A stretch of 38,329 nt of DNA, from positions 1 to 38,329 of the IMG/VR virus record IMGVR_UViG_3300048012_000107. One strand, written 5' to 3'. Origin of the DNA: a virus. The notes beneath the pieces are model-generated. The model was not told the DNA's origin, ran no database searches, and worked only from the letters and a program-made list of their open reading frames with translations. The translations under genes and the position numbers were made by a program. Positions 275-33,221 of the stretch are shown here, one piece after another. Positions within the stretch are counted from its first letter, which is position 1; each line of letters opens with the position of its first letter.

Positions 275-2660
275 GTCAATGCTCACGCTGGGTGTTGGCA
301 GGTATCGTTCTAAAATTGAGAACTCAAAAGCCAGAAATGCTGAGTTAGAAACAAGATACGGGCAAACAATAATGCGAGAAGCTTTACCTAAGTTTTCTGT
401 TAGCATTAAAGATTGGCTTGAGTCAATAGCAAAATATACCACCCCAGCTCGTTACCAAATAGAACTACAGACACTAAACCCCAAGGTAATTGCTTACATA
501 TCCACCAAGGCAATAATCGACAGCATAACAAAAAAGAGACCAATGTCTCAGGTTGCTATCTTCCTCGGTGCTCGCCTTGAGGATGAGATTAGGTGTAAAT
601 TTCTACTAAATAATAACGAAGAGAAAGCTCAAGGCATTCTACTCGGAGCTAAGCGCAGAAAAGGACTCAACGCTAAAGTCCGTCACGTTCGCTCCTCGAT
701 GAAAAACGAAGCAAGCAAAGGGCTTATGCCTGAGTTTGAGAAGTGGGCAACTAGAGATAAAACTAGTGCAGGATTAACAGCGGTAGAATTATTCAGAAGC
801 TGCACCGGACTGATTGAATACAACTATGTTCTTGAACGAGCTGGGCGCAGGCCGACTAGGTTTGTTGCTCCCACCAAGGAGCTTGTCGATTGGATTGAAA
901 ACTACAATGATAACCGGGAGCTTATGGAACCCTTCTGGTTGCCCACCGTAGAACTACCTGAGCCTTGGACAAACGTTTGGAAGGGAGGCTACCCGGCTGA
1001 CGATAGACTACCAGAGGTTCCTTTCATCAAGACTTCGAACATGGAGTATCTACGTTCGATACCGGGAGAGCTAAAGGAACCTATGGGTGCTGTGAATCTA
1101 ATCCAACAGACTCCTTGGGAAATAAACTCAGCAGTAAAGGATGTCATGGAGTGGTCTTGGGACAACAACGTAGCCATAGGAGACATCCCAAACCGAAAAG
1201 ACGAAGAGTTCCCTCCGCTTCCAAATGACTTCAAAACAAACCCGGAAGCTAACGTTAACTGGAGACGACAGGCCGCGAAGATATACGACATAAATCTTTC
1301 CACTAAATCTAGACGATTGCTGACGGCCAAAGTTCTTCATCTAGCAAACAAGTTCGAAGGTAATCGATTCTTCTTTCCGTCGAATGTTGACTGGAGAGGA
1401 AGGGTCTACAACATACCCTCGTTCCTCAACGTCCAGAACGCCGACCCATCTCGTGGGTTGCTACAGTTTTTTCGTTCTGAGCGTGTCAAAACGGAATCAC
1501 AAGCTGAGTGGTTAGCTATTCATGGGGCTAACACTTATGGCAATGACAAAGTAACCCTTGAAGAGAGAATCCAATGGGCAAACGACTACTCTGACGAGGC
1601 TTGTTTGATTGCGTCCGGTCCTAAAGAAAATCTAAGTTGGACTACCGCAGACAAACCTTGGCAGCACCTCGCTTGGTGCCTAGAATGGGCTACGTATAAA
1701 CAGCAAGGTTTTGTGGATTCTAAACTACCTTGTGCTCAGGATGCAACCAACAACGGACTACAACTACTGGCGTGTTTAACTCACTGCGAAGATACCGCTC
1801 ACGCTACCAACGCCTCCCCCACTGATTACCCTCAAGATATATATTCAGTGATTGCGTCCCGTGTTAACGATAAGCTAAAAGAAGACGCAAGTACGAAAAA
1901 CGTAGTAGCTAAGTCTTGGTTAAGGTTTGGAGTTGACCGCAAGGCAACAAAAAGACCGACGATGGTATTCCCTTATGGAGGAACATTCTATTCGTGCAGA
2001 GCTTACATCGATGAGTGGTATCAAGACCTCATTCGAAAAGACCATGTCACAAACCCATTTTCTGAAAGCGAGCGATACAAGGTTACAGGTTACCTAGCTA
2101 AACTTGTGTGGTATTCTATTCAAGAGGTGTTTGATAAACCCACAAAATGTATGAAATATTTACAAGGAGTAGCCTCTGTTATGACTAGAGCTGGCAAGGT
2201 TGTTGAGTGGGTTACTCCTACCGGGTTCCCCGTTATGCAACATTACGCGAAACAGACATCCAAATCGGTGTCTACTAAGATTGGAGGTGAGGCTACTTGG
2301 GTAAACTTCAGGGACAGCACCGACGAGCTTAGCGTAGCAAGGGCTAAACAGGGTATCAGTCCTAACTTCGTTCACGGTATTGATGCCTCTATCCTCGCTA
2401 GAACTGTGTTAGGTGCTAATTCATTAGGTATATGGGACTTCTCGTGCATCCACGATTCCTTTGGGACGCACTCAACAAAGTCTCACGAACTAGCAGCGTC
2501 AATCAGAAAAGCAGCTTCTGAAATTTTTAGTGTTGACTTACTCGCACAATTCGACCACAACCTTAGGTGTTCTAACCCTGAGTTGGAATTCCCTGAGTTA
2601 CCTGAGTATGGAACATTTGACCCACAAGGGGTTAAACATAGTCGGTATCTCTTTAGTTAA
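243..2660 (+). CDS. T7-like single-subunit DNA-directed RNA polymerase
   Basis: This is the phage polymerase that would transcribe replication and late genes from phage promoters. Numbering from GTG 243 (805 aa; T7 has 883), the palm aspartates are D500 in CAQDATNNG and D738 in IHDSFG. The O-helix carries K570 and Y578 in KRPTMVFPYGG. These match T7 D537, D812, K631 and Y639. The N-terminal helix (TQESLNES followed by GRYRSK) aligns with the T7 start region, which favours GTG 243. TTG 183 extends the frame by 20 residues and ATG 279 would remove part of that helix. No Shine-Dalgarno precedes any of these. A weak promoter-like TTGACT at 207 lies inside the longest version. The gene is first in the replication block and is followed after 25 bases by the SSB gene. 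Function is certain; the start is not. Confidence 0.97.
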   Translation: MADLTQESLNESMLTLGVGRYRSKIENSKARNAELETRYGQTIMREALPKFSVSIKDWLESIAKYTTPARYQIELQTLNPKVIAYISTKAIIDSITKKRPMSQVAIFLGARLEDEIRCKFLLNNNEEKAQGILLGAKRRKGLNAKVRHVRSSMKNEASKGLMPEFEKWATRDKTSAGLTAVELFRSCTGLIEYNYVLERAGRRPTRFVAPTKELVDWIENYNDNRELMEPFWLPTVELPEPWTNVWKGGYPADDRLPEVPFIKTSNMEYLRSIPGELKEPMGAVNLIQQTPWEINSAVKDVMEWSWDNNVAIGDIPNRKDEEFPPLPNDFKTNPEANVNWRRQAAKIYDINLSTKSRRLLTAKVLHLANKFEGNRFFFPSNVDWRGRVYNIPSFLNVQNADPSRGLLQFFRSERVKTESQAEWLAIHGANTYGNDKVTLEERIQWANDYSDEACLIASGPKENLSWTTADKPWQHLAWCLEWATYKQQGFVDSKLPCAQDATNNGLQLLACLTHCEDTAHATNASPTDYPQDIYSVIASRVNDKLKEDASTKNVVAKSWLRFGVDRKATKRPTMVFPYGGTFYSCRAYIDEWYQDLIRKDHVTNPFSESERYKVTGYLAKLVWYSIQEVFDKPTKCMKYLQGVASVMTRAGKVVEWVTPTGFPVMQHYAKQTSKSVSTKIGGEATWVNFRDSTDELSVARAKQGISPNFVHGIDASILARTVLGANSLGIWDFSCIHDSFGTHSTKSHELAASIRKAASEIFSVDLLAQFDHNLRCSNPELEFPELPEYGTFDPQGVKHSRYLFS

Positions 2661-2685
2661 ACAACACAAAGAAAAACCAAAACCA

Positions 2686-3294
2686 ATGAGTACAAACCTA
2701 AAATTAGTCACCCCTATCGGAACCGCAGTCTACCCTAAATTGGTAGAACCCGACACAGCGTTCGATGATGTGGGTGTGTTCACCTGTAAACTTCATGTAT
2801 CTGAGAAAGAGTTTGAAGAGTTCAAAGCTAAGGTCGATGTCTTAGCCACCGCTGCTTACGATTCCGAATGTCAGCGACAAGGTAAGACAGTAAAGAAAGC
2901 CAAGAGCTGCCCTGTTCGAATCACCGAAGATGGCGACTACGAAATCTTAGCAAAACAAAAAGCTAAGGTTACCACCCGCGCTGGAGATGTTATTGAATTT
3001 AACATCCCACTGTTCGATGCTAATGTTAAAGCCATTACCAACAAGCCTAAGATTGGCTCTGGTTCAAAGATTCGCATGAGCGCCGTGTTCAGTCCTTGGT
3101 ATGTCCCTAGTCAGGGATGGGGTTACACTCTTCGTCTCAAGGAAGCACAAATCCTTGAGCTAGTTGAGTATAGCGTCAGCGGCGGTGGAGGTTCCTTCAG
3201 TAGCGAAGCAGGAGGCTACACCACGTCTGGAGAATCACTCAATGAGGCACTGGAGCAAAACCAAGAGGAGCAGGGCCAAGTCGCCCCGTTCTAA
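2686..3294 (+). CDS. T7 gp2.5-like single-stranded DNA-binding protein
   Basis: A 202-aa protein placed where T7 carries gene 2.5, right after the RNA polymerase and before endonuclease I (T7 gp2.5 is 232 aa). The body has the alternating strands expected of an OB fold. A glycine-rich linker (SGGGG, about residues 165-169) leads to an acidic, Gln-rich tail that ends in a terminal phenylalanine. The T7 protein also ends in Phe, which is needed to contact polymerase and helicase. The ATG at 2686 follows an A-rich leader without a Shine-Dalgarno site. A frame extends further upstream but runs into the polymerase gene. Its 3' end overlaps the endonuclease start by 53 bases. The call rests on tail, length and position more than on motifs. 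Confidence 0.85.
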   Translation: MSTNLKLVTPIGTAVYPKLVEPDTAFDDVGVFTCKLHVSEKEFEEFKAKVDVLATAAYDSECQRQGKTVKKAKSCPVRITEDGDYEILAKQKAKVTTRAGDVIEFNIPLFDANVKAITNKPKIGSGSKIRMSAVFSPWYVPSQGWGYTLRLKEAQILELVEYSVSGGGGSFSSEAGGYTTSGESLNEALEQNQEEQGQVAPF

Positions 3295-3640
3295 ATTCCG
3301 TTCGCGTTTCGAGGAGAGGCTCGCCTGTGGCTTAGACAAGCGCGGCGTTGCCTTCTCCTACGAATCGTGTCGTATCGAATACACCGTAGTCCGAAGGTAT
3401 ACACCTGACTTCATTTTCCCAAACGGAGTTATGGTAGAAGCCAAGGGCTACTTTACTTCAGCCGACCGCACCAAGCATCTCCGGGTTCGAGAGTCAAATC
3501 CTCTTTTGGATATTAGATTTTGTTTCCAGAACTCTGAGAACAAACTTAACAAGAAAAGCAAAACGAGTTACGCCGACTGGTGTGACAAGCACGGGTTTCT
3601 TTGGTGCGAGCGGGTGATACCAAAAGAATGGGTTTTATAA
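3242..3640 (+). CDS. T7 endonuclease I-like Holliday-junction resolvase
   Basis: A 132-aa homologue of T7 gp3 (149 aa), which cuts branched DNA and helps degrade host DNA. All four catalytic positions of the T7 enzyme are present: E24 in FRSRFEERL, D56 in YTPDF, and E66 and K68 in VEAKG. The C-terminal signature TSYADWCDKHG and the ending IPKEW also match. The start is ATG 3242, inside the SSB gene in another frame. A longer frame back to 3164 has no homology. The stop overlaps the primase-helicase start by 13 bases, so the three genes look translationally coupled. It probably acts with the exonuclease at 7429 to recycle host nucleotides and to clear junctions before packaging. Confidence 0.93.
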   Translation: MRHWSKTKRSRAKSPRSKFRSRFEERLACGLDKRGVAFSYESCRIEYTVVRRYTPDFIFPNGVMVEAKGYFTSADRTKHLRVRESNPLLDIRFCFQNSENKLNKKSKTSYADWCDKHGFLWCERVIPKEWVL

Positions 3641-5585: not shown

Positions 5586-7429
5586 AAAAAATAGTAATAG
5601 ACATAGAGACCAACGCCATCGAGTGCTGGGCTACACTCAAAGGGCTGAAGACCATCCACTGCATCAGTATCTTAGATACAGCTACAGGAGAGATGACATC
5701 CTACAACTCCCAGATAAAGGGAGGAATCGACACAGCGTTTTCGGTCATTGGAGCCGCTGACGTTATCATAGGTCATAACTCCATAGGGTTTGACTGGCCA
5801 GCCATGCTCAAGATGGACAAGGAAGGGTCACTAGGCTTGGACCCTCCGTTTGTAATTGACACAAAAATTATGGCCAAGTGCGTTTACCCGGACCTCAAGA
5901 CTGACGATTTCAAAACTAAAAGAGTCGAGCCTAAGTATGCAGGAAGTCACAGCTTGAAAGCTTGGGGAATGAGACTAGGCATACACAAGGACTCACACGG
6001 TGAGACTGAGGACTGGTCAAAGTGGTCTCAAGAAATGCAGGAATATTGTGAACAGGACGTTTGGGTGACCTTTGCTCTGTATAAACACCTTAACACTAAA
6101 GTCCCCAATAAAAGTGTGATGATGCTTGAGCACGACTTCGCTAACGCCATTCGCAATCAGGTAGAGACGGGCTTCCCGTTCGACAACGACAAAGCAGAGA
6201 AACTAGCATCTAAACTAATGACAAGAAGGGTTGAGCTTCAAGATGAGCTACAGAAGTTATTCCCTCCTAAGATTGTTGAGACCAAGACCCCCGCTGGTTG
6301 GGCGGTAGTTGAAGGCGGGGTTACCTACACAGCTCCTACCAAGAAAGAACTAAAGTCTAAACTCAAAGAAGCAGGACTAAAACAAGTCTTAGCTAACCAA
6401 GCTGACAAGACCGGAAACAAAAGCATTGAGGTTCCGTTCAACGCTGGTTCTCGTGACCAAATCTCAGCTAGGTTGATTGAGGCCGGTTGGAAACCTAACG
6501 CTTACGAAGGCAAGCGCCCAGCGATAAACGAGGCGGTTCTAAAAGACATTAACACTCCAGCCTCTCTCGCCCTGCTTGAGTATCTTCTAATTCAAAAAAG
6601 ACTAGGCGCTTTAGCTGAAGGTAGGTATGCTTGGATGGGCATGGTTCAGAACGGACGCATCCACGGTGATGTCGATTCGCTTGGAGCTTACTCTGGAAGA
6701 TGCACTCACTCGAAACCAAACCTTGGTCAGATTCCTGCTACCCGTGCTCCTTATGGAGCTGAGTGTCGAGAGCTATTCACCGCTCCTAAAGGTAAGGTGT
6801 TAGTAGGAGCTGACGCTTCCGGCATCGAGCTTCGCGTGTTGGCCAGCTACTTGTCTAACTGGGACCGGGGGTCCTATGCTAAAACAATCGTAGAGGGAGA
6901 CATCCACACCGCTAACCAAGAGGCGGCTGGATTATCAACGAGAGATGAAAGTAAGAAATTCATTTATATGTGGCTCTACGGCGCTGGTGATGCAGCCATT
7001 GGAGCTATCGTCGGCGGCGGAGAACGCGAAGGCAGAGCACTGAAGAATAAATTCCTTGAGAAGATTCCTGCTGTGCGCTCTTTAATGAACGCCATTGACC
7101 AGCGCGTAAAAACGCAAGGCACAATCAAAGGATTAGACGGTAGGTTAATCCCGGCGCGTAAAGCGTTCAGCGCCCTCAACCTTCTGTGTCAGTCAGCCGC
7201 TGCCGTCATAATGAAGAAAGCTCTAGTGCTCTTCGCTAAACGAGCTAACGGATACGAGATGCACGCCAACGTCCATGATGAGGTTCAGTTCTCCTGTGAC
7301 GCTGACAGAGCTGAAGAACTAGGAGAGCTGTTTGTTGACTGCATCAAAAGTGCAGGATTCGAACTTAACGTTGCCTGTCCTCTAGACGGGGAATACAAAA
7401 TCGGTAACAACTGGAAGGAGACACACTAA
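5582..7429 (+). CDS. T7 gp5-like family A DNA polymerase with 3'-5' exonuclease
   Basis: A 615-aa replicative polymerase (T7 gp5 has 704). The proofreading domain begins with DIE at residues 7-9 and has HNSIGFDWP and the late EYCEQDV. The polymerase domain shows motif A DASGIELRVLA with D411, motif B KKFIYMWLYGAG near residue 458, and motif C NVHDEVQF with D566. It is about 90 residues shorter than T7 gp5. Part of the difference may be the thumb insertion that binds host thioredoxin, which I cannot identify here; processivity may be handled differently. The gene starts inside the preceding stop (ATGA) and ends TAATG into the exonuclease gene, so polymerase, exonuclease and primase are likely co-translated. 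Confidence 0.97.
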   Translation: MKKIVIDIETNAIECWATLKGLKTIHCISILDTATGEMTSYNSQIKGGIDTAFSVIGAADVIIGHNSIGFDWPAMLKMDKEGSLGLDPPFVIDTKIMAKCVYPDLKTDDFKTKRVEPKYAGSHSLKAWGMRLGIHKDSHGETEDWSKWSQEMQEYCEQDVWVTFALYKHLNTKVPNKSVMMLEHDFANAIRNQVETGFPFDNDKAEKLASKLMTRRVELQDELQKLFPPKIVETKTPAGWAVVEGGVTYTAPTKKELKSKLKEAGLKQVLANQADKTGNKSIEVPFNAGSRDQISARLIEAGWKPNAYEGKRPAINEAVLKDINTPASLALLEYLLIQKRLGALAEGRYAWMGMVQNGRIHGDVDSLGAYSGRCTHSKPNLGQIPATRAPYGAECRELFTAPKGKVLVGADASGIELRVLASYLSNWDRGSYAKTIVEGDIHTANQEAAGLSTRDESKKFIYMWLYGAGDAAIGAIVGGGEREGRALKNKFLEKIPAVRSLMNAIDQRVKTQGTIKGLDGRLIPARKAFSALNLLCQSAAAVIMKKALVLFAKRANGYEMHANVHDEVQFSCDADRAEELGELFVDCIKSAGFELNVACPLDGEYKIGNNWKETH

Positions 7430-8160
7430 TGGATTCGATAATAATTGACGGAGACATGGTAGCCTACCGGGCTGCTTTTGCTAGTGAGTATGAGACCAAG
7501 TGGGACGAAGACCAATGGACCCTGCTCTGCTCTGAAACAGACATGAAGCGGGAGGTTGAGACCTTCTTTGGTAACCTGAGAACAAGACTAGACTCTGACA
7601 ATCTAACTCCAGTGTTCTCTCCTTCGTCTAACTACCGCTACGACATCTTCCCGGAATACAAAGCCTCAAGAAAGACAAAGAGAAAACCTCTTGGATTGAA
7701 ATGGTTGTTCGGTTGGATGAAGGAAACCTACGGAGGTATCACCGCTGAGAACATGGAGGCCGACGATTGGATTGGTATCCTCTGCACCAAGGACCCAAAG
7801 AAAACCATTGCTGTATCGGGCGACAAGGACTTCGCTACTCTACCTATTCGTTGGTATAACCCACTGAAGGACGAGCTAAAAGAAGTGACAGAAGAAGAGG
7901 CTAGAAACTTCCACCTTATTCAGACTCTAGCCGGGGACCAAGCTGACGGCTACTCTGGAGCTAAAGGCGTGGGTCTCATTGGGGCTAAAAAACTTATGGA
8001 CAAGAAGGGTTATACATGGGATACCGTGGTAGAAGCTTTTGAGAAGGCAGGGCAAACCGAAGAAGATGCACTGATTAACGCTAGGTTAGCCTACATCCTT
8101 CAATACAAAGACTACGACAAAGATACCAAGAAGATAAACCTATGGAAACCTTCGAAGTAA
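7429..8160 (+). CDS. T7 gp6-like 5'-3' exonuclease
   Basis: A 243-aa FEN-type exonuclease (T7 gp6 has 300) that removes RNA primers and degrades host DNA. Metal-binding motifs in order: IIDGDMVAY at the N-terminus, MEADDWIG, SGDKDF, and GDQADGYSG followed by the helix-hairpin-helix-like GVGLIGAKKL. The ending INLWKP also matches the T7 protein. This is one of very few genes here with a good ribosome binding site, AAGGAG eight bases before the ATG, even though the ATG also overlaps the polymerase stop. The 3' end overlaps the next gene by 19 bases. Confidence 0.95.
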   Translation: MDSIIIDGDMVAYRAAFASEYETKWDEDQWTLLCSETDMKREVETFFGNLRTRLDSDNLTPVFSPSSNYRYDIFPEYKASRKTKRKPLGLKWLFGWMKETYGGITAENMEADDWIGILCTKDPKKTIAVSGDKDFATLPIRWYNPLKDELKEVTEEEARNFHLIQTLAGDQADGYSGAKGVGLIGAKKLMDKKGYTWDTVVEAFEKAGQTEEDALINARLAYILQYKDYDKDTKKINLWKPSK

Positions 8161-9218: not shown

Positions 9219-11024
9219 ATGCTTTACAGACCCTCTTTAGTTTCTTCTACCACACGTTCTCCTGTTAGGTCGTTGGTGCAAAAATTGTTTGGGTCTGAAG
9301 GATTTGACCCACTAGCGCTAGACCCTTACCTTTTATTCGACGCGCAGACATCAATGCGCGGCACCCTTGAGGCGTTCACGCTAGACCTTGACCCGGCGAA
9401 TCCATCGACGCTCGACGTTATCACAGCGAACCGCAGCGGCGTTGCCACGTTCACCGATGCCAATGGTAACATAGCGACCGCCCCAAGCGACACGGTGCGC
9501 GTTGACCACACTCAGGGAGCCGAGTTGACTCCGACAGTTTATCAGCACATCGGACACACAGACTTTTCAACGGACTGGACCAAAGCAAATGTTGCACTTA
9601 GCACATCTGAATTTAATGCACCGGATGGAACTTCAACGGCTTATAAAATCACAAACTCTAGTTCGTCTGGTAATCATTTCATAAGAGATTCAATTACTAG
9701 TGGCGCAAATCCTTCAACTGTGGTAAGCGGTCGGTCTTACACCTTGAGCGTGTTTCTCCGCAAAGGCACAAAGGATGTAGTCTCTATCGGCGATGGTTTT
9801 AATGTTAATGTGTTAGCTCGTTTTAACCTGACATCTGGCACTGTAACAAATTTGAGCGCATCAAGTTCAATCATTGAGCAATTTGGCGATTGGTTTCGAT
9901 GCAGCGCAACAATAACAACCACAGGCACAACCCTTGGTTTAATGCTATTTACCGGCAATAATTACGCAGGGCATGACACGTCAGGCGATTTCCACGCCTT
10001 TGGACCACAGCTCGAAGAAGGCACAACCGCGAGCGACTTCGTGGCGAACACAACGGGCAGCCCGAAGTTCACGGGCATCAGCGCAACGTATTCGCCTAGA
10101 GTCCCCATGATTCTGGTGGAGCCGAGTGCGACGAATCTTATCAGCCACACCAATTTTTCTAATTGGGTGCAATCGACTAACACAACTCTTCAAGATGGTT
10201 TAGGTTACGCAGGGCAACCTTCAAAAATATTCACAGCCTCGGCAGGGACACACCGTACTTTTTACTCTAATACGTTTTCCTCCAACTCTGGGACAACTTA
10301 CACAGGCTCCCTGTGGATTAGGCGTGTAACAGGCACTGGCACGGTTCAGATTAACCATCAATCTTCCGCTCAAGGTAATTTAACGAACATTACCAGCGAT
10401 ATAAATGAAGAGTGGACTCGCATTAAAATAAACTTTACTGGCAACGCAACCAGCGGAAATATTTATTTTGGTATTTGGTTGAACGTGCAAGGGGACGCTG
10501 TTGAAATTTCAATGCCTCAAGTTGAAGAAGGCGCAGTGGCAACATCGTTCATACCGACAGCAGGCGGTGACGCCGCAGCAAGAACGCGAGCCGCTGACGA
10601 CCTTAAGATTACCGGCAGTGCCTTTACGGACTTCTTTAACAGCGGAGGAGACGGCACGTTTTACGCTGAGTTCATTACGCGCACTATTACAGAAGAACAA
10701 ATTTATGTTCTAGCAGGTCACAGCAGCGTTCAGCGGTATCTCTATTCTAATACTGTCACCTCAACCTTAAACTCTTATGACGGCTCAACAGGCTCAATTT
10801 CTACCGCCGGTATCCAATCCACTCTGAACCGAGCTTCAATCTCGTATAACTCAAACTCACGGAAAGGCTCATTAAATGGTTCGACGGATTCAAATCACTC
10901 CGGCTCCGGTAATTTAAGAGATTCGACTCGTTTATCTATTGGCCAATCTTGGATTAGTGACAAACAACTCAACGGCCACATCAAGCGTCTCATCTACTGG
11001 CCTACACACTCAGACTCTCTCTAA
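9219..11024 (+). CDS. Large tail-fibre or receptor-binding protein with repeated lectin-like modules
   Basis: A 601-aa protein. After a short N-terminal region with LLFDAQTSMRGTLEAFT come two related modules of about 150 residues. Each opens with a TNFS or TDFS plus Trp signature and closes with PQLEEGTTASDF or PQVEEGAVATSF. This is the common phage pattern of carbohydrate-binding or concanavalin-like domains. A third lectin-like domain (TFYAEFITRT onward) ends in GHIKRLIYWP. The linkers are GC-rich and the module interiors AT-rich, suggesting module exchange. The protein most likely binds cell-surface glycans. It sits outside the usual gp17 position and is followed after three bases by a second, larger fibre gene. 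Confidence 0.75.
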   Translation: MLYRPSLVSSTTRSPVRSLVQKLFGSEGFDPLALDPYLLFDAQTSMRGTLEAFTLDLDPANPSTLDVITANRSGVATFTDANGNIATAPSDTVRVDHTQGAELTPTVYQHIGHTDFSTDWTKANVALSTSEFNAPDGTSTAYKITNSSSSGNHFIRDSITSGANPSTVVSGRSYTLSVFLRKGTKDVVSIGDGFNVNVLARFNLTSGTVTNLSASSSIIEQFGDWFRCSATITTTGTTLGLMLFTGNNYAGHDTSGDFHAFGPQLEEGTTASDFVANTTGSPKFTGISATYSPRVPMILVEPSATNLISHTNFSNWVQSTNTTLQDGLGYAGQPSKIFTASAGTHRTFYSNTFSSNSGTTYTGSLWIRRVTGTGTVQINHQSSAQGNLTNITSDINEEWTRIKINFTGNATSGNIYFGIWLNVQGDAVEISMPQVEEGAVATSFIPTAGGDAAARTRAADDLKITGSAFTDFFNSGGDGTFYAEFITRTITEEQIYVLAGHSSVQRYLYSNTVTSTLNSYDGSTGSISTAGIQSTLNRASISYNSNSRKGSLNGSTDSNHSGSGNLRDSTRLSIGQSWISDKQLNGHIKRLIYWPTHSDSL

Positions 11025-11027
11025 CTC

Positions 11028-13916
11028 ATGGCACTCAATTTATCCACACTGACCAACGCGTCGACATCAGGCACAGTTTTGACCGAGGCGTTAACTACCG
11101 CCGACTTTTTGGACTCGGTGCCGATTTTGTCAAACCTTGCCAACCGAGGAAATAAAGGAGGCGACGCCAAGCAGACGGTGGGCAGCAACCAACCTAAAGC
11201 ACTTCCACTAGTCAACGGTTCAGGGTATGTTTATTTGCCTAACGTGACCGGCAACGCTCCGGCTGTTGACTTTCCAAACGTCCCGTCATCGACGAACTAT
11301 GTGCTGACTATTGTTGCTGACATTCAAAATCCATCAAATTTTCATTTTGTCACTGGTGTTAATTCTGCACATCGCTTTGCTATTTTCACTAATCAATTTT
11401 ACGCACCAAACCGAGGCGGGGTGACCCTAAACTCTGCGATAACGACCGGTCTCTCTACGTTTGTAATTGAAGGAACTGGGTCGGCGATAACTTTAAAACA
11501 AAACGGCGTTACCAAGGCCACTGTGACCGGTTCTACAAATGGGTTTGACGTGACCCATATTTCTTTTAACGGCCAATATGGCGGCACTAGTATTCAATCT
11601 ATTTCAGGACTAGTGAAAAGCGTAGTGTTGACCGTAGGCGGCACTGAGTCCGTTAACATCGACTTCGCGGCCACCAACATCCGCCACGGTGACACCAAGT
11701 TCAAATGCGCGACTGGTCAGGTTGTTACAATCAATCAGTCCGGCAACGACCCCGGGACCATTATCAAGAAACCGGTGCTTCGGTTCGCTAATAAAAGCGA
11801 TGCATCTACTAACATAGCTCTTGCCGGTCTGTTAAACCAGACGGTTACTGGTGGTTACATGTTCGCGGCGTTTAGTGTTCTTGGTGATGGTGGAGAAGCG
11901 CAATCAAGAATCTTTAGTATGAACTCTACAGGTGCGTTTGAATACGAGGCAGGTGGGTTTGACTTGAGAAGAAATAGCGTAGACGGCTCTAACCTTGAGT
12001 TTAGATACAACGGCGCATCAGCCGCAACGCTACACCAAGACGTAATGGACGATAGCCTCGGTGATATTTTGTTCGAGCATCAATTTCAAAACGGCGCACA
12101 AGTCAGCAAGCTAAATAATGCAAACGAAGCGAATGGAACGACAAGTGTTTCAGGTGTTTTAAGTTCTGAAGAATTTAGAATCGCAGAACTCAGTGGCTCA
12201 AACACTACCGGTGCGTTTGACCTAGAATACCTTGCCCTCTTCCCTGCGACCATCACCGACGCCCAAGCTGACTCTGTTCGTAATTATATTAATAATAGGA
12301 ACAACGTATTTAGTCTCATTGACTCACAAGGCTACTATTTCTACGATGCCCAGAAAGCCCCAGTCGGAGCGATAACAACAGGCTCGGCCTCATGGAACGG
12401 ACGTATCATTGGCTCGGACTTTGGGGACTCTGACCGCTATGCCACACAAGGCACAACCAACGAGGAGCCAGTCGGGGACGGCTATGTTGTTACCTTTGCA
12501 GACAACGCTGACCACCTAGATATTCCACAAGTAACCCAAGCTGGCTGGCAAGTCGTCGGCACGTCAATCGGAACCTTTGCGTATCGCGTGGATAACGATG
12601 CGGTCACTGAGTTAAATCTTTTGGGTAACTTTGGTTCACAGCGACAAAGTGGTGATTTGTATGGTATTATATTATTACCAGAATCGGCAACAGGTGCAGA
12701 TATTGAATCTGCGAGGAGACTCTTGATTGATAGAGGTGCGGCAGATGCAACCACACTATCTGATATGTCAGATGCTTGGCAGTATCGGTCAGATTTAACT
12801 GAGTTTAAAAATATTGATTTTTCATCAGTTACGAATTTTGGGTCTTCGTGGTTCAATTGCGCGAGCTTGACCACGTTCAGTGTCGCGAGCTTACCGTCAG
12901 CCACGGCTGTAAATAGCGCATGGAGGAACTGCGGTTCTCTAACCTCATTTAACACAGATTTAGCTGAAGCCACGAATGTAAGTGATGCGTGGTTGAGTTG
13001 TTCAAGTTTGTCGAATTTTGGTCCTGTCGATATTTCAAAAGGAACAAATTTTAGTAACGCTTGGAAATCCTGCTCGTCCCTAACGTCATTCGCGAGTGGC
13101 GCAAAGCTCGGCACGAGCGCACAGAATGTGAACTTTACGAGCGCATGGCGGGACAGTGGACTTACTTCGTTCAGCACTCCGTTGCCGACCGCGACAAATC
13201 TCAACACAACGTGGTATACTTGCACAGCCCTAGCAAGTTTTAGCAGCCAACTTTCAGCGGCAACTCGCGTAGATGCCGCGTGGTATGGTTGTGTTTCACT
13301 TTCAAGTTTTACAACTACCGAGATTCCCAACTGCTCAAATTTCAGCAGTGCGTGGCACAACTGCTCCTCTCTAACGTCATTCGCGAGTGGCGCAAAGCTC
13401 GGCACGGCGGCGAACAATGTGAACTTTACGAGCGCATGGCAAGACAGTGGGCTTACAAGCTTTCCTGCTGACATTGATTTAAGTCAGGGGACAGATTTCT
13501 TTAACACGTGGCGCGGAACAGACTTAACGTCTTTTGAAACTCCCATCACTTCGGCAAAAAGATTCCCGCAAGCTTGGCAATCCTGTGGGAGCCTTACAAA
13601 TTTTAGTAGTGCGGTGTTTCAAAATTGGAATCCTAGCAGTTTACTTACCGGTGTTTTCCATAGAACATGGAAATTCTGCACGGCTCTAACCGCTCAATCG
13701 GTTGAGAACATCCTGACCTCTATCGACGCATCCGGCAAATACGCAACATCCGACGGTGACCCTTATCAAAATACAGTCAATACACAACTGGCTGACGCTG
13801 GCATCGACATTGACTACGATGGAACGACGCTCAGTGCTGCAACTGACAGTGCAATAACATCTCTACGAGTTAAGGGCTGGGTAATTTTTATTAACGGAGT
13901 GGAAAGAATACCATAA
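11028..13916 (+). CDS. Giant receptor-binding-type protein with lectin-like domains and leucine-rich-like repeats
   Basis: A 962-aa protein. Residues 1-220 form one lectin-like domain. Residues 230-430 form a second, with the family ending TDAQADSVRNYINNRN. Residues 430-585 form a third, ending in GADIESARRLL. Residues 585-890 hold about 13 tandem units of roughly 23 residues with the core AWxxCxSLTxF, resembling BspA-type leucine-rich repeats. The C-terminus ends SLRVKGWVIFINGVERIP. Such repeats mediate protein or surface binding, so a role in host recognition is likely. Composition alternates between GC-rich and AT-rich blocks. No reverse transcriptase or template repeat is present, so this is not a diversity-generating retroelement target. 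Confidence 0.75.
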   Translation: MALNLSTLTNASTSGTVLTEALTTADFLDSVPILSNLANRGNKGGDAKQTVGSNQPKALPLVNGSGYVYLPNVTGNAPAVDFPNVPSSTNYVLTIVADIQNPSNFHFVTGVNSAHRFAIFTNQFYAPNRGGVTLNSAITTGLSTFVIEGTGSAITLKQNGVTKATVTGSTNGFDVTHISFNGQYGGTSIQSISGLVKSVVLTVGGTESVNIDFAATNIRHGDTKFKCATGQVVTINQSGNDPGTIIKKPVLRFANKSDASTNIALAGLLNQTVTGGYMFAAFSVLGDGGEAQSRIFSMNSTGAFEYEAGGFDLRRNSVDGSNLEFRYNGASAATLHQDVMDDSLGDILFEHQFQNGAQVSKLNNANEANGTTSVSGVLSSEEFRIAELSGSNTTGAFDLEYLALFPATITDAQADSVRNYINNRNNVFSLIDSQGYYFYDAQKAPVGAITTGSASWNGRIIGSDFGDSDRYATQGTTNEEPVGDGYVVTFADNADHLDIPQVTQAGWQVVGTSIGTFAYRVDNDAVTELNLLGNFGSQRQSGDLYGIILLPESATGADIESARRLLIDRGAADATTLSDMSDAWQYRSDLTEFKNIDFSSVTNFGSSWFNCASLTTFSVASLPSATAVNSAWRNCGSLTSFNTDLAEATNVSDAWLSCSSLSNFGPVDISKGTNFSNAWKSCSSLTSFASGAKLGTSAQNVNFTSAWRDSGLTSFSTPLPTATNLNTTWYTCTALASFSSQLSAATRVDAAWYGCVSLSSFTTTEIPNCSNFSSAWHNCSSLTSFASGAKLGTAANNVNFTSAWQDSGLTSFPADIDLSQGTDFFNTWRGTDLTSFETPITSAKRFPQAWQSCGSLTNFSSAVFQNWNPSSLLTGVFHRTWKFCTALTAQSVENILTSIDASGKYATSDGDPYQNTVNTQLADAGIDIDYDGTTLSAATDSAITSLRVKGWVIFINGVERIP
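12769..13660 (+). repeat. Tandem leucine-rich-like repeat region inside the giant fibre gene
   Basis: About 13 units of 20-30 codons carry the core AWxxCxSLTxF. Two of them are nearly identical as DNA: 13080-13165 and 13371-13456, exactly 291 bases (97 codons, four units) apart. They share 36 identical bases at their start and another 25 identical bases further on. This points to recent duplication or gene conversion of a four-unit block. Confidence 0.85.
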
Positions 13917-13918
13917 TT

Positions 13919-14263
13919 ATGACAGACGAAACCCATAGATTCTTTAGGTTCTCCAACGAGGCATCCTACGAGACACTCACGACTGCTGGTAACACCGCAA
14001 GGAACCTACCAGACGAACAAAGTGACCGGTGGTTAGCTCTTTGGGATAAGACTTTTCTCGACCCTGAGACCAACAGCGACCGCCTGTATTGTGTTAAGCG
14101 CAGTGGCATATTGCCGACCGACGACTTTGACCTAGAGGGCATTGAGGAAATTAACCTAGACACGTATCTCCAACGCCTACGCTGGGAGCCACCTATCGAA
14201 GAAGACCTAGAGCTTCTTGATGAACTACAACTACCTGACCAATGGACCCTGACGCACCCTTAA
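13919..14263 (+). CDS. Hypothetical acidic protein after the fibre gene
   Basis: A 114-aa acidic protein rich in Glu, Asp, Leu and Trp, with LPDEQSDRWLALWDKTFLD and a C-terminal IEEDLELLDELQLPD. I do not recognise a family. It starts two bases after the giant fibre gene and its 3' end overlaps the next gene by 22 bases. Small proteins downstream of fibres are often fibre-assembly chaperones, and that is the most natural guess here, but there is no direct sequence evidence. Confidence 0.6.
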   Translation: MTDETHRFFRFSNEASYETLTTAGNTARNLPDEQSDRWLALWDKTFLDPETNSDRLYCVKRSGILPTDDFDLEGIEEINLDTYLQRLRWEPPIEEDLELLDELQLPDQWTLTHP

Positions 14264-14571
14264 CTGACATTGAGCAATCCCGAGCCGACACGGGCTTCCG
14301 GTATTACGTGGTTCAGCCTGACGAACTTTACACGGGACTTGTTGCAGCCGTAGACGCTGACCGAGGATACCCGACCCCTAACACCTTGACGGGCCTACCT
14401 CCTGTAGAAAACCTTGCAGAAGCTACAGACGGTAGCGGGCGACTTATAGCCATTGACTGCTGGAGATTCACCGCTAACGATGATGCGATGCTTGAGGGGG
14501 CGGATGGAGTGCAAGAGTTAACCCAACTAGAATTTTTATCAATTAAACCTGAAGCAGAAGAAACACTTTAA
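14242..14571 (+). CDS. Hypothetical protein before the portal gene
   Basis: A 109-aa acidic protein with FRYYVVQPDELYTGLVAAVD in its N-terminal third and ENLAEATDGSGRLIAIDCWRF in the middle. No family is recognised. It overlaps the previous gene by 22 bases and the portal gene by one base (TAATG), so it lies in the same translational chain. It may act with the preceding protein in fibre assembly; this is inference from position only. Confidence 0.6.
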   Translation: MDPDAPLTDIEQSRADTGFRYYVVQPDELYTGLVAAVDADRGYPTPNTLTGLPPVENLAEATDGSGRLIAIDCWRFTANDDAMLEGADGVQELTQLEFLSIKPEAEETL

Positions 14572-17126: not shown

Positions 17127-17240
17127 ATGCCTAAAGTTGGAAAAAAAAAATACCCATACACTCCTGCTGGGAAAAAAGCAGCTAAGAAAGCAGCTAAGAA
17201 AGCAGCTAAGAAGTCTAGTCTTTCTATTAAGAAGAAGTGA
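17127..17240 (+). CDS. Lysine-rich mini-protein
   Basis: A 37-aa protein, MPKVGKKKYPYTPAGKKA followed by three AAKK(A) repeats and SSLSIKKK. Its charge is strongly positive. The MPKVGKKK opening recurs in short proteins of marine podoviruses and myoviruses. Function is unknown; binding to DNA, RNA or the capsid interior would fit the charge. The DNA holds a perfect repeat of GCAGCTAAGAAA units that could slip. There is no Shine-Dalgarno site. Confidence 0.7.
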   Translation: MPKVGKKKYPYTPAGKKAAKKAAKKAAKKSSLSIKKK

Positions 17241-32024: not shown

Positions 32025-33221
32025 ATGCCTAATTCATACACCCAATTAACCTTAGTAGCTGGCTCAGCTTCACCTAACGGTACATCTCAACTTAACTACG
32101 GACCCTTTGATTTTGAGTATCTAAACAAAGATGACATCAAGTTTGCTATTCTTACTCCGGGACCTCTTTATGTTGTTGTGCCTATAGCTAGCGTAAATGA
32201 AACAACTAAAATAATAACACTAAGCAGCAGCATCGCAGCTCAATACCCTTCTCTGACAATTACGTCAGCTAGGGTATACAGAGCTACTACTACAAACGCT
32301 CTGGTAGACTTCACGGCCGGTTCTCGTATCTCGGAGGCTGACCTAGACACAGCCTACAGGCAGGGGTTGTTTGCAGCTCAGGAGGCTAGTGAAGACGCTT
32401 CGGGAAGTGCAAGTCGGGTGATTATAACAAACAGCGACATACAGGACGGCGCTGTAGGTGCTAGTAAGTTAGCTACAGATGCGGTAGAAGCAGTTAAAAT
32501 AAAGGATGGAGTTGTTGGTGCTACTAAACTAGCAAGCACACTAAACTTAAGCGGTAAGACACTTACAATACCTACCGCCTCAGTTACGCAAGCAGCGGTT
32601 ACCCAACACGCAACAGCAATTAAAGGCGCTATTGACATCAGCTCAGGAATGACAGGGGTGTTACCAGCAGCTAACGGTGGAAACCCTAACAACCTTCTTG
32701 AAAGCTTTCAGTTACCCTGTGATGGTATTGCTTTTAGTAGACCTAACGGTGTAGCATTTACATCGCAAACAGTAACTTCGCATCAGGATTTAACTAACAT
32801 AGACGCTGTGGTAAACGGCTCTAGTGTTACCTATACTCCTCCTTCTGGAACTAAAATTGTTGTGTATGAGTTTAGCTTTGTTGTCGGCGCTGATTCAGTA
32901 AACGACGACGCTAAGGCTTCTTTTAAACTGTTCTTAGACTCAGACGAAGTGACCGCTTTCTATTCTATGGTTAAAAGCCCCGGTGGTAACGACGGCTTTC
33001 CTCCCGGATGGCAAACAGTAAAATACGCTTTCCGAATAGGAGAGGGAGATAACGCTGGCTCAGGAAGGGTAAACACTTGGACATCAAACAAAACCATAAC
33101 GCTAAAAGGAGTAAGCACTGGTGCTGATGTAGCGACATGTCACAGGACATTTCATTATAACCTTACCGCTGCAAATACTCGTTTCGTAAGGCCCTTAATT
33201 GGAATTACAGCTTTATCATAA
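32025..33221 (+). CDS. Tail fibre protein with T7 gp17-type N-terminus
   Basis: A 398-aa protein. The N-terminal 125 residues match the gp17 attachment domain: FDFEYLNKDDIKFAIL, then VYRATTTNALVDFTAGSRIS, EADLDTAYRQGLFAAQEA. A short coiled region and DGAVGASKLATDAV-type repeats lead to a beta-rich C-terminal domain (from about residue 225) that probably carries the receptor-binding tip or mediates trimerisation. The T7 fibre is longer (553 aa), so this may be a short fibre or adaptor to which the unusual proteins at 9219-13916 attach. That link is inference. Confidence 0.9.
   Translation: MPNSYTQLTLVAGSASPNGTSQLNYGPFDFEYLNKDDIKFAILTPGPLYVVVPIASVNETTKIITLSSSIAAQYPSLTITSARVYRATTTNALVDFTAGSRISEADLDTAYRQGLFAAQEASEDASGSASRVIITNSDIQDGAVGASKLATDAVEAVKIKDGVVGATKLASTLNLSGKTLTIPTASVTQAAVTQHATAIKGAIDISSGMTGVLPAANGGNPNNLLESFQLPCDGIAFSRPNGVAFTSQTVTSHQDLTNIDAVVNGSSVTYTPPSGTKIVVYEFSFVVGADSVNDDAKASFKLFLDSDEVTAFYSMVKSPGGNDGFPPGWQTVKYAFRIGEGDNAGSGRVNTWTSNKTITLKGVSTGADVATCHRTFHYNLTAANTRFVRPLIGITALS

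Follow-up and report, generated by a model that had tools for sequence, protein, structure and literature searches.

Changes of host recognition in phages are usually attributed to point mutation, swaps of whole tail fibers, or retroelements. In the distal tail-fiber adhesins of T-even phages, recombination at conserved glycine-rich motifs exchanges the recognition segments. Among leucine-rich repeat (LRR) proteins, the BspA-type or TpLRR family (Pfam LRR_5, PF13306; structures 4fs7 and 6mlx) is built from units of 22-24 aa that form a solenoid. Marine phages carry host-recognition islands that vary within populations (PMC3909814), and a tail module is common to distantly related Alteromonas phages, across families (PMC10579305). 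As far as excerpts of these reports go, they involve tail fibers, C1q, and carbohydrate-binding proteins, and the passages from PMC3909814 contain neither an LRR array nor a repeat anchor.

We analyzed a window comprising all 38,329 nt of the IMG/VR virus record IMGVR_UViG_3300048012_000107, which encodes a 962-aa candidate adhesin (Table 1). A full-length homolog with 49% identity and the same gene neighborhood, BAQ94261, is found in uncultured phage MedDCM-OCT-S45-C18 (AP013544, Ayaqvirus); it differs in having 10 repeat units with a single AKLGT unit (see below) and is annotated only as a hypothetical protein. The window protein has unit length and a predicted solenoid in common with BspA-type proteins, which also give its best fold matches and a weak profile match; however, W replaces the usual F and F replaces I at core positions, a 28-aa AKLGT unit is inserted, the score falls below the Pfam cut-off, and the array is phage-encoded and joined to two LamG-like domains in one protein. 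With the marine systems, as excerpted, it shares population-variable recognition genes and a module found in distant phages. The likeness to T-even adhesins lies solely in how the system would work, with short conserved motifs as crossover points, whereas the anchor here would itself be a solenoid repeat that also alters array length. We propose, with a probability of roughly 0.7, that the locus is a host-recognition cassette exchanged horizontally, whose LRR array is remodeled by recombination at the embedded, conserved AKLGT unit.

Table 1. Features of the window discussed in the text, with the basis for each assignment.
Feature	Position (nt)	Strand	Basis or remark
gp2.5-like ssDNA-binding and annealing protein	2530..3294	+	phrog_112 E 7e-20; GTG start; scanned from 2605
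Endonuclease I, gp3-like	3164..3640	+	PF05367 E 3e-42
5'-3' exonuclease, gp6-like	7429..8160	+	PF02739; phrog_107 E 2e-58
601-aa LamG-like tail-type protein, upstream cassette gene	9219..11024	+	phrog_5939 tail protein E 4e-37
962-aa LamG-LamG-LRR protein, candidate adhesin	11028..13916	+	ORF; full-length homologs in AP013544 and dozens of IMG/VR contigs
Two predicted jelly-roll (laminin-G/ConA-like) domains, ~aa 77-410	11256..12257	+	moderate-confidence model; Foldseek matches to laminin LG4-5 pairs
13-unit LRR array, aa 583-889	12774..13694	+	PSSM unit scan; model; LRR fold matches
First 28-aa AKLGT unit, aa 678-705	13059..13142	+	contains first 36-nt tract and most of first 25-nt tract
Second 28-aa AKLGT unit, aa 775-802	13350..13433	+	contains second tract copies
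Conserved C-terminal cap 3' of array	13695..13916	+	QSVENIL anchor; model: two helices and strands
114-aa cassette protein	13919..14263	+	present at 22 loci of the family, aa identity averaging 82%
109-aa cassette protein	14242..14571	+	present at 23 loci of the family, aa identity averaging 86%

The initial annotation had described about 13 leucine-rich-like repeats and called for structure prediction. A PSSM scan mapped 13 units, starting at aa 583, 607, 631, 654, 678, 706, 728, 751, 775, 803, 827, 849, and 880 (spacings of 24, 24, 23, 24, 28, 22, 23, 24, 28, 24, 22, and 31 aa), with a family-wide consensus of AWQNCSSLTEF over the first 11 positions. Modeled alone with AlphaFold2, the array is confidently predicted to be a solenoid (pLDDT 88.7, with most of the array above 90; pTM 0.87), and a PDB fold search with this model placed LRR proteins on top, the BspA-type 4fs7 first (E 1.6e-4, TM 0.37-0.38; 6mlx, a TpLRR protein, TM 0.51 by target). 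The predicted fold thus bears out the LRR-like reading and has what defines the LRR superfamily, namely repeated 20-30-aa units forming a solenoid. By Pfam LRR_5, both the whole protein (15.1 bits) and the array (18.6 bits) remain below the gathering cut-off of 27.7 for the BspA type. In the N-terminal part, AlphaFold2 placed two jelly rolls at moderate confidence, with laminin LG pairs as the best PDB matches. Searches with the 962-aa protein gave no match by sequence in the PDB or among NCBIfam profiles, two genome-collection scans found no bacterial homologs, and our literature searches turned up no publication describing LRR adhesins in phages of such type.

Taken together, we infer a putative host-recognition protein in which two N-terminal jelly rolls bear a C-terminal LRR solenoid; its adhesin-type domains and gene context make a virion location and receptor binding plausible. 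This reading is weakened by a separate T7-type tail-fiber gene at 32025-33221, which we count against it. Related arrays are found as stand-alone proteins near structural genes in the cyanophages S-SKS1 and S-CBWM1. Among relatives (designated by L numbers), L027 (5998-8025) keeps the N-terminal part (window aa 1-430) and has no LRR units, the entire LRR part seemingly having been swapped for a different C-terminal region. The adhesin genes of L001 and L006 have an extra domain of ~250-360 aa beyond the cap, in their 3' part, and the C-terminus therefore appears to be modular too. A 330-aa antisense ORF over the array (12482-13474, minus strand) was rejected as a gene: its length is within the codon-shuffle range and explained by repeat codon usage, and an equally long open frame is missing in most relatives.

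The 601-aa gene upstream of the adhesin, whose product matches the RcapMu tail fiber, has homologs in 24 loci. Few neighbors of the adhesin are conserved as well as the 114-aa and 109-aa genes, which accompany it from lineage to lineage; among annotated phages these two genes have matches in AP013544 only, and an adaptor or chaperone role is a possible guess. This four-gene cassette is common to at least two phage lineages, and probably three, as judged from marker genes. The window phage, with a T7-type RNA polymerase (PF00940 E 3e-86) and a T7-type portal (phrog_449 E 3e-176), belongs by these markers to the Autographiviridae, in agreement with its earlier description as a podovirus. T7-type polymerases also occur in L025, L026, L003, L013, and L166, and every portal found on these polymerase-bearing contigs, including the window, is T7-type. 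L008, L153, L157, and L024, contigs that may be incomplete, have a distant portal only and no T7-type polymerase; the L008 portal matches BPP-1-type phages, and L008 has a distinct set of head and tail genes together with genes of RecT/RecE type. L009, L156, and L169 are contigs of 55-61 kb, possibly incomplete, with neither the polymerase nor the portal marker; L009 has a different polymerase family, and a large ORF in its structural region had no match in phages. Roseobacter phage CRP-171 has a portal with 54% identity and lacks the cassette at the corresponding place.

Window positions 10551-11752, from the end of the 601-aa gene to the start of the adhesin gene, are 98% identical to L024 over 1202 nt, which likely reflects a recent exchange across lineages. 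Similarity drops on both sides of this block, and L024 has no RNA polymerase or close portal. L014 and L016 are the two ends of one 37.5-kb contig (IMGVR_UViG_3300037635_003524) with differing copies of the adhesin gene: either one phage has two adhesin genes, or the assembly was joined inside the gene. Elsewhere in the window, positions 17175-17212 hold a perfect 12-nt tandem repeat of 3.2 copies (AAAGCAGCTAAG). AP013544 is placed by its title in group G8, which includes one pelagiphage-like genome (PMC3861242); nevertheless, a SAR11 host for the window phage is doubtful because its G+C content is ~46%.

Arrays of the family range from 5 to 16 units among 63 ORFs, truncated ORFs included, and three copy-number events can be read directly from the sequences. 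L008 has three 291-nt modules in tandem. At all diagnostic sites its middle module equals the third module up to the AKLGT tract and the first module beyond that tract, changing over in ~52 identical bases inside it; by these sites it is the product expected from unequal crossing-over between two AKLGT tracts 291 nt apart, the spacing also present in the window. L005 corresponds to L020 with three units (222 nt, 74 aa) removed, and the register shifts inside an AKLGT unit. In L166, a nearly perfect 69-nt tandem duplication of one unit, absent from L169, is the one event of the three that lies outside AKLGT units. Copy-number change by recombination, suggested by the initial annotation for the window, is thus strongly supported in these relatives by sequence comparison, although not for the window pair on which the suggestion rested.

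Exchange between phages is also visible at this unit. The similarities upstream and downstream of it are uncorrelated (r = 0.07); L005 and L015, for example, are 99% identical upstream and 24% downstream. We defined near-identical blocks between phages as at least 150 nt at 95% identity or more. AKLGT units occupy 16% of the array and contained 32 of 57 interior breakpoints versus 9.3 expected (3.4-fold), counts that share phylogeny and whose binomial value ignores shared ancestry. Two mosaics illustrate the pattern: L120 resembles L099 before the unit and L153 after it, and L005 changes there from L153-like to L008-like sequence. At these two junctions the parents compared are identical over just ~12 nt, which we count against recombination at the AKLGT unit.

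The AKLGT unit, LTSFxxGAKLGTxAxNVNFTSAW plus a lead-in, spans 28 aa and is present in one to three copies per relative, and its DNA varies unusually little from phage to phage. In the window, two segments 291 bases apart had been reported to share identical tracts of 36 and 25 bases. Both were located exactly, at 13080 and 13371 (36 nt) and at 13125 and 13416 (25 nt), within a 155-nt repeat of 77% identity. Shared DNA ancestry of the two copies follows from their codons, since 28 of the 37 codons for the same amino acid are identical in DNA versus 13.7 expected (P = 3e-7); the remaining unit pairs of the array show no excess (57 of 209 versus 68.7). This codon excess would fit a 291-nt duplication or a gene conversion of recent date in the window, and the tracts had been read as a recent internal duplication, but we consider such an event highly improbable. 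Among 549 AKLGT-unit pairs from different phages, with a mean identity of 0.81, the core identity of the window pair (0.897) is equaled or exceeded by 9.5% and its 36-nt exact run by 7.3%. The window pair is thus no closer than ~9% of different-phage pairs, and each copy has a longer exact run in common with another phage than with its partner (52 nt between the second copy and L020, 41 nt between the first and L009). Likewise, the nearest relative of each copy is a unit of another phage. No strain-level copies of two window units were found in IMG/VR, from which near-window records may have been left out. By these comparisons, the tract pair reflects a family-wide conserved unit rather than a late event in the window.

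It is unlikely that the locus is an ordinary divergent LRR array, with AKLGT constrained at the protein level and units changing by slow duplication and drift. The invariant residues of the AKLGT unit would be expected there, as would the L166 duplication outside it, but that explanation leaves no special role in recombination for a unit with an excess of breakpoints and three clean junctions (L008, L005, and L120). Codon identity cuts both ways: it is 0.75 in the AKLGT core versus roughly chance in adjoining units, yet the best N-terminal windows of the gene match that value and other conserved stretches are comparable, and the uniformity is therefore no proof of selection on DNA. That the unit is partly maintained as a DNA-level recombination anchor, its uniform sequence letting lineages that share a host trade and resize arrays, is accordingly a tentative and rather doubtful extension of our proposal. 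Assembly artifacts must also be weighed, given that every relative is an assembled metagenome contig, that one contig has differing adhesin copies at its two ends, and that contig ends are commoner in the adhesin region than toward the portal. Of the 27 contigs that reach 20 kb, 10 stop within 3 kb of the 114-aa gene on its upstream (adhesin) side and 2 within the same distance downstream, an excess consistent with population variability without proving it. Identical overlaps of ~12 nt are too short for k-mer joining, which makes chimerism unlikely for L005 and L120, and L006-type and L120-type junctions recur in L042 and L099, from two separate metagenomes. We therefore regard mosaics arising as chimeras joined at the repeated tract as very unlikely.

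The sequences show that the four-gene cassette has passed between phages of differing lineages. Under the proposed remodeling at the AKLGT unit, intragenic crossovers between AKLGT units would add or remove multi-unit modules, and inter-phage crossovers at the unit would swap the sequence up- or downstream of it. Solenoid length and surface would vary while frame and fold are preserved, and an altered solenoid could shift which host surface is bound. The process would be homologous or homeologous recombination at the unit, presumably performed by annealing proteins and exonucleases that the phages themselves encode; the gp2.5-like, gp3-like, and gp6-like products of the window correspond to the set responsible for recombination in T7. 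Other routes to variation found no counterpart here, with no RVT_1 match indicating a diversity-generating retroelement in the record, which may be a fragment, and no PF00239 (serine) or PF00589 (tyrosine) match indicating a site-specific recombinase switch in the genome.

The occurrence of one cassette in several lineages suggests that these phages meet in the same hosts. If the anchor reading were true, arrays would be resized without loss of frame or fold, and recognition modules would form a shared pool. The family offers a natural record in which repeat-number change and cross-lineage exchange are legible as crossover products within one marked repeat, and marine phages may use such repeat reshuffling to track changing host surfaces.
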